From: Nitrososphaeria archaeon
Lineage (GTDB): Archaea; Thermoproteota; Nitrososphaeria; Geothermarchaeales; JDFR-13
Direction of reading: 5' to 3'
Length of the DNA stretch: 32,592 nucleotides
Assembly: GCA_027047855.1 (NCBI GenBank)
Contig: JALTTZ010000035.1
Location: 1 to 32,592, forward strand
The translations under genes and the position numbers were made by a program. The stretch's first letter is position 1, and each line of letters starts with the position of its first letter. Positions 10,894 to 16,988 of this stretch are shown piece by piece. The notes below the pieces were generated by a model. That model was not told the origin of the DNA and ran no database searches. It saw nothing but the letters and a program-made list of their open reading frames with translations.

Positions 10894-10988
10894 TGCTCCG
10901 GCCGGGATTTGAACCCGGGATCACCGGCTCGAGAGGCCGGTCTCAGCCCCCACAGGGGGTATGCTTGACCGGGCTACACCACCGGAGC
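10894..10988 (-). tRNA. tRNA-Glu(CTC) interrupted by a 19-nt intron near position 25/26
   Basis: Minus strand: GCTCCGG-TG-GTGTAGCCCGGTCAAGCAT-[ACCCCCTGTGGGGGCTGAG]-ACCGGC-CTCTCGA-GCCGG-TGATC-CCGGGTTCAAATCCCGG-CCGGAGC-A. Removing the bracketed 19 nt gives a standard Glu cloverleaf; no encoded CCA. Confidence 0.9.
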
Positions 10989-16068: not shown

Positions 16069-16141
16069 GCCGCCGTAGCTCAGCTGGTAGAGCACCGGGC
16101 TGTTAACCCGGGGGTCCCCGGTTCGAGTCCGGGCGGCGGCG
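16069..16141 (+). tRNA. tRNA-Asn(GTT)
   Basis: GCCGCCGTAGCTCAGCTGGTAGAGCACCGGGCTGTTAACCCGG...GGTTCGAGTCCGGGCGGCGGC-G; loop CTGTTAA, anticodon GTT; no encoded CCA. Confidence 0.95.
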
Positions 16142-16751
16142 TACATATATATTTATTATATATTTCTGACATAAATTGGGTAAGATCTGAAATTTTTCTC
16201 CGTGTTAGGCCTAACCGTTTTTCCATTATGCTGAACCCAGTTTCATCTAGGATTTTCTTTATATGTCGTTTTCTGTAGATAGCTGTTCGGTGAATATCGA
16301 TAATTCTCACATATCTTTCCCCATTTATTTCCATTGTTGTCCCGGCCCTATTACTTAGATAAGATCCAGTTGAAGCTCTGTTGAAATGTTAATGTAGATA
16401 TTATACATATTTCAGTAGTTTTTCATTATTAGTTGTTAGAAATATCCGACTACATTTGTAGTTATTTTCGTGACTGCCGTATAGTTCTCGTAGGAAATGT
16501 GCTACTGTATCCATGTTGTGCTCGATATATTGTTTTCCAACATTGCTCTGTGGTCTAGATAATCCCTTTTTTCAGTAATATAAAATGGTTTTCTTTGTTA
16601 TTGGCCATCCAACTAATTTACATGCTTAGGTTAGACTATATCCTTTTCTTAGTAGTCTCATATCTTGTTCGTATTCTTCAATACTATAGTCTTCTTGTCT
16701 ACGTATCTCTACAATTAAGGGAGTGATCTTATTTTTAAACTGTAAATTTTT
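16142..16751 (-). pseudogene. Decayed gene, probably HTH + LAGLIDADG-like homing endonuclease
   Basis: One continuous minus-strand frame: QIKNLQFKNKITPLIVEIRRQEDYSIEEYEQDMRLLRKGYSLT*ACKLVGWPITKKTILYY*KKGLSRPQSNVGKQYIEHNMDTVAHFLRELYGSHENNYKCSRIFLTTNNEKLLKYV*YLH*HFNRASTGSYLSNRAGTTMEINGERYVRIIDIHRTAIYRKRHIKKILDETGFSIMEKRLGLTRRKISDLTQFMSEIYNKYI. Four in-frame stops (first two at 16626-16628 and 16572-16574); no obvious start. Confidence 0.6.
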
Positions 16752-16766
16752 TATTTGGGGGTTGTT

Positions 16767-16988
16767 ATGAAGTTTAAGCTTTGGGTTTCTAGGGATAAGG
16801 AGATGGTGGCTTTATATACTGACAAGGCATGTGTAGATATTTTCTTAGAGAAGCAGGGTGTTGATATTCCTAGTGATAAGGTTAGGCTTGAGTTTTATGA
16901 GGGTGATGAGTTGGTGCAAGTTAAGTATGTAGATGTGGAGAGGGAGTTAAGTTTAAATGAAATACTGAACTTCTTAAGAAATAAATAA
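16767..16988 (+). CDS. Small hypothetical protein (MKFKLWVSRDKEM..., about 73 aa)
   Basis: ATG at 16767 after a G-rich leader; acidic/mixed composition. Confidence 0.55.
   Translation: MKFKLWVSRDKEMVALYTDKACVDIFLEKQGVDIPSDKVRLEFYEGDELVQVKYVDVERELSLNEILNFLRNK

Follow-up and report, generated by a model that had tools for sequence, protein, structure and literature searches.

Archaeal double-LAGLIDADG homing endonucleases of the I-DmoI type are encoded by rRNA introns and are not known to carry an N-terminal helix-turn-helix (HTH) domain. In WhiA, a bacterial regulator, the HTH is C-terminal and the catalytic acids are largely lost. Mobile DNA of archaea classically docks at tRNA genes, and SegB, a GIY-YIG phage enzyme, has a homing role. 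Free-standing homing endonucleases occur in T4-like phages, where SegB is associated with the tRNA region of the phage (PMC2988022, PMC13096335). In archaeal viruses and plasmids, integrases of the SSV and pNOB8 types act at the ends of tRNAs, which remain functional (PMC3293823), and a two-part "a-b" multicopy insertion has been described at tRNA-Thr in "Ca. Caldiarchaeum subterraneum" (Sugahara et al. 2012, PMC3293823). Here we describe a decayed gene next to tRNA-Asn in a 32,592-nt stretch (the window) of a Nitrososphaeria archaeon of the Geothermarchaeales (GenBank assembly GCA_027047855.1, contig JALTTZ010000035.1). It is very probably what remains of a free-standing homing endonuclease gene, with an HTH and a double LAGLIDADG, that inserted immediately 3′ of the tRNA in convergent orientation. 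The window feature in itself is an ordinary decayed copy; the interest lies in the family that it exposes, which is best explained as free-standing genes for homing endonucleases that specialise in tRNA 3′ ends, with the window copy in the terminal stage of their cycle.

This family resembles I-DmoI and other archaeal double-LAGLIDADG homing endonucleases in having two domains with one acid each, but it is free-standing, abuts tRNA genes and carries an N-terminal HTH. As with SegB, a free-standing gene adjoins its target and is tied to a tRNA region, whereas the present genes are of the LAGLIDADG type, reside on archaeal chromosomes and lie convergently at the 3′ ends of tRNAs of many isotypes. 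The SSV-type and pNOB8-type integrases are tyrosine recombinases, accompanied by attachment-site repeats and cargo; nothing of this sort was seen in the family. WhiA likewise joins a LAGLIDADG fold to an HTH, but the HTH here is N-terminal and both acids are invariant. The Caldiarchaeum insertion is also a multicopy element beside tRNA genes, from the same broad lineage; we rejected its "b" open reading frame (ORF) as a published member, as the ORF beside tRNA-Thr(CGU) does not match the family. The Caldiarchaeum genome does have a family member, which overlaps tRNA-Gly(TCC). Homing endonucleases that are free-standing and mobile elements directed at tRNAs are each of an already known kind; for an archaeal HTH-LAGLIDADG family fixed convergently to tRNA 3′ ends in several phyla, we found no earlier description in the open literature, subscription papers lying outside the search.

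The window copy was noticed in a first-pass annotation as a minus-strand frame (16751..16142) with four nonsense codons that joins an 84-amino-acid (aa) ORF (16334..16080), and the frame is present as described there; the ORF runs antisense through tRNA-Asn. The decayed family copy itself occupies 16194..16700 on the minus strand, with four in-frame stops (three TAA and one TGA). The locus is made up as follows.

16069..16141, plus strand: intact tRNA-Asn (GTT), the host gene (ARAGORN; Rfam RF00005, 73.5 bits)
16142..16193, minus strand: 3′ run-on of the frame into the tRNA, beyond the lost family stop (GLPRRRK end of the relatives; nucleotide alignment with the same-genus genome G002)
16194..16535, minus strand: decayed C-terminal part with motif 2 (FLRELYGSHENN), the second domain and the terminal GFSI..K block; two TAA stops (profile A1, alignments)
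16536..16559, minus strand: deletion junction (profile A1; alignment with the decayed but full-length G002 ortholog)
16560..16700, minus strand: decayed N-terminal HTH; one TAA and one TGA stop (profile A1; HTH families in intact relatives)
16755..16988, plus strand: small conserved ORF (p77) on the far side of the insertion (tblastn, 81% in G002 [L162] and 38% in G009 [L167])

The protein-like reading of this frame is far above chance. With X at the stops, the repaired protein found matches in 7 of 61 genomes, its own included (hence six relatives), the best being in G002 (E = 1.5e-31) and the same-family genome G006 (E = 3.2e-30). Profile A1, built from eight intact relatives with the window copy left out, recovered 16194-16535 at an E value of 4.6e-28 (profile positions 145-260) and 16560-16700 at 1.1e-4 (positions 4-47). 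The frame is thus real, but the extent first proposed for it needs correction: homology is confined to 16194..16700, some 16 opening codons have no counterpart in relatives, and a deletion of ∼270 to 290 nt had been overlooked. It lies between 16535 and 16560 and removes profile positions ∼48-144 (∼97 codons), the first LAGLIDADG motif among them. In the second motif, which reads FLRELYGSHENN, the catalytic Asp is changed to Gly. The suspected loss of a catalytic acid is therefore borne out, and more fully than supposed; with motif 1 gone and motif 2 so altered, the copy should not be an active enzyme. The two HTH stops that had been derived from Glu and Trp codons do align with Glu and Trp in relatives. 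The relatives end after a "GLPRRRK" tail, while the window frame continues for ∼20 codons, the family stop codon having been lost. The run of the frame into the tRNA had been taken to mark an insertion boundary; that boundary holds and is the rule for the family, but the run-in itself is partly a further lesion. The ∼34 nt straight after tRNA-Asn (16142-16175) are near-identical in G002, the element being otherwise 74% identical, and perhaps represent a tRNA trailer or terminator under selection. Elsewhere in the window, positions 10894-10988 hold a tRNA with an intron, its anticodon left unresolved by ARAGORN.

The HTH-LAGLIDADG identity proposed at first sight could be established only through relatives, as the stop-repaired window protein alone reached a sub-threshold E value of 0.087 with LAGLIDADG_3, and its matches in Pfam and the PDB were at chance level. 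Intact family members are ∼265 aa long, with an N-terminal HTH followed by two LAGLIDADG domains, and share the conserved blocks ELAYVIGVLLGDG, FLRGLYDSEG and a terminal GFSI..KQ. Among the eight intact relatives, Pfam assigned LAGLIDADG_3 to all eight (best E = 9.5e-17), LAGLIDADG_WhiA to six and assorted N-terminal HTH families to most. One Asp per motif (D76 and D167) is invariant across 32 members. An AlphaFold model of an intact member (pLDDT 92, pTM 0.81) predicts three N-terminal helices and then two domains of the LAGLIDADG pattern; its closest solved structure is I-DmoI (E = 9e-9), followed by intein endonucleases and WhiA. Sequence domain, double-domain fold and an acid in each motif place the family in the LAGLIDADG homing endonuclease superfamily, and its members are free-standing, each being an ORF of its own outside the tRNA, with its own upstream region and no intron or intein. 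Pairs of intact copies gave dN/dS values of ∼0.1 to 0.3 where dS could be estimated, which places them under purifying selection. When one genome from each of 84,980 bacterial and archaeal species was scanned, 111 relatives came to light, the best 80 of them nearly all archaeal, with members, their taxa named by way of matching contigs, in Geothermarchaeota, Caldarchaeales, Thaumarchaeota, Thermococcus, Archaeoglobaceae and Methanocaldococcus; relatives in IMG/VR are distant (22 to 28% identity).

Comparison of the tRNA-Asn locus among related genomes, as the first-pass annotation had proposed, shows one site in empty, occupied and decayed states. The gene order NurA, tRNA-Asn, Top6A is common to the window and G005 (on one contig), and the site in G005 has no element; in G009, where the site is likewise empty, p77 follows tRNA-Asn directly. 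G006 has an open, stop-free copy behind tRNA-Asn, incomplete only through the contig end. In G002, the tRNA is followed by a full-length decayed element with about ten stops and then by p77 and p235, as in the window; the two copies are 74% identical over 620 aligned positions, and only that of the window bears the deletion. In the family tree, the window copy clusters with the G006 tRNA-Asn copy and three others of the same organismal family (96% SH-aLRT). The genome of the window also holds an intact 267-aa paralog (L015:1489-2292; contig G000:C90), which departs from the convergent rule in that its nearest tRNA is codirectional with it. tRNA-Asn has no intron in the window but has one in G002 (L162:107-223), G004, G007 and G009. 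We do not claim a general link between elements and tRNA introns, since intron-bearing tRNAs are very common in these genomes. In G003, of the same family, a tyrosine-recombinase-like frame stands directly behind tRNA-Asn (L164; G003:C6, after 5959), so that the same tRNA end appears to be used there by a different kind of element.

The placement next to a tRNA is general. To locate tRNAs at the 57 best loci, we combined Rfam and ARAGORN with a scan for T-arms. At 45 of these loci, a convergent tRNA faces the 3′ end of the gene with its own 3′ end (gaps of about −110 to +135 nt), and four further loci, judged by eye, have a tRNA-Met or tRNA-Cys with an interrupted T-loop, which brings the total to 49. 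Among the remaining loci, one has a codirectional tRNA downstream, another is inverted and has its tRNA upstream, a third meets the edge of its contig, and five lack a tRNA. By our own arithmetic, ∼0.2 of 57 loci would be expected by chance (∼0.3% per random gene end, given 43 tRNAs in the 1.58 Mb of G005). The target tRNAs cover at least 18 isotypes (Ala, Arg, Asn, Asp, Cys, Glu, Gly, His, Ile, Leu, Lys, Met, Pro, Ser, Thr, Trp, Tyr and Val). Among more distant LAGLIDADG relatives (Woesearchaeota and similar groups), such placement is almost absent. SRP RNA and 5S RNA were considered as extra targets (L035 and L061) and rejected, as a tRNA T-arm intervenes between the RNA and the gene.

Copies have also spread over tRNA types within genomes. 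SKYB24 carries three copies, ∼80 to 83% identical, behind tRNA-Pro, -Ser and -Val, and HR02 has copies 89% identical behind tRNA-Trp and -Ile that share the bases just after the tRNA; same-genome copies have only the gene and its flank in common. Within one order, 30 of 44 genomes were positive, and matches per genome ranged from none to more than 20 (fragments counted). In Thermococcus, the interval from tRNA-Met to the S15 promoter holds, as judged by eye, a convergent element, an inverted element or a short gap of 62 to 138 bp. Of the three short gaps, two resemble deletion scars, because they retain element-like ends. The Thermococcus insert is 0.9 to 1.0 kb long and consists of the LAGLIDADG gene alone, with no integrase or other cargo. 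Two contigs of a Thermococcus metagenome genome (L074 and L081 in G061) share a tRNA-Met site with near-identical flanks, but the elements that they carry there differ and are oppositely oriented. The native intergenic sequence appears to have been replaced rather than split, as by gene conversion.

According to the explanation that we favour, the enzyme would cut tRNA genes at or near their 3′ end, and repair from an occupied copy would install the gene beside a still functional tRNA. Occupation would shield the site from further cutting, selection on the enzyme would lapse, and decay and deletion would follow. Several points weigh against this account. We saw no duplication of a target site. 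A minority of copies stand at non-tRNA sites: none of the six copies in G147 is at a tRNA, and no tRNA was found for about half of the copies listed in G144 and G153, where contig ends and interrupted tRNAs hide some. A few copies are codirectional or inverted relative to the tRNA. Deep members keep one isotype (Cys in Thaumarchaeota and Met in Euryarchaeota), for which vertical descent could give the same pattern. Most of the genomes are metagenome assemblies, broken at repeats. Finally, DNA cleavage, like its exact target and the repair route, is something that we infer.

The pairing of an HTH with a LAGLIDADG fold could alternatively denote a domesticated WhiA-like regulator that adjoins tRNA genes to regulate or terminate their transcription, the window copy then being a lost paralog. 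Besides the HTH, the weak LAGLIDADG_WhiA matches, the presence of WhiA among the structural matches, the steady convergent orientation and the purifying selection would all suit such a role. Nevertheless, we consider it highly unlikely: both catalytic acids are invariant in the 32 members, unlike the degenerate residues of WhiA, presence is sporadic, with 0 to 20 or more copies among related genomes, decay and deletion scars are frequent, and relatives occupy different tRNAs. As a second alternative, the genes could be passengers, LAGLIDADG genes left as debris of integrase-borne elements that target tRNA 3′ ends, which are classical integrase sites; the recombinase-like frame behind tRNA-Asn in G003 speaks for this. 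We give the idea very little credence, however, as the inserted unit in Thermococcus is about the size of a single gene with no integrase or cargo inside, the same family stands at the boundary in dozens of sites across several phyla, and same-genome copies do not share more than gene and flank. A tyrosine recombinase with attachment-site repeats was not found in the 0.9- to 1.0-kb inserts, the repeats without a systematic search.

The decay itself might be questioned, as the source genome is an incomplete metagenome assembly (75% complete), and an intact gene could appear disrupted through errors in sequencing or assembly, or the gene could be recoded. The chance of this is practically nil. 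There are several independent lesions in addition to the ∼270- to 290-nt deletion, and the stops mix TAA and TGA; sequencing error is not credible, because an independently assembled genome of the same genus has a decayed ortholog, 74% identical, at the same site. Recoding of the stops was rejected in view of the mixed stop codons, the deletion and the decayed ortholog.

We also put forward a tentative proposal, less probable than its contrary: a class of archaeal selfish elements would home on tRNA 3′ ends with a LAGLIDADG enzyme in place of an integrase and copy the tRNA 3′ half along with the gene, so that different tRNAs could be invaded. Under the pressure that results, T-loop introns and other tRNA disruptions may be favoured because they abolish the target. 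Hints in this direction come from two elements at non-tRNA loci preceded by the 3′ half of a tRNA alone (T-arm and acceptor strand; L094 and L304), from target tRNAs (Met and Cys; L033, L034, L060 and L073) whose T-loop is broken by an apparent intron and which fall below the Rfam gathering cutoff, and from the varied T-stems of Thermococcus tRNA-Met. An endonuclease family at tRNA 3′ ends would be a new candidate agent of the pressure behind archaeal tRNA introns and splits. Each element-bearing tRNA predicts a cut site, and the enzymes of the family could be thermostable meganucleases with a natural range of tRNA-derived targets.
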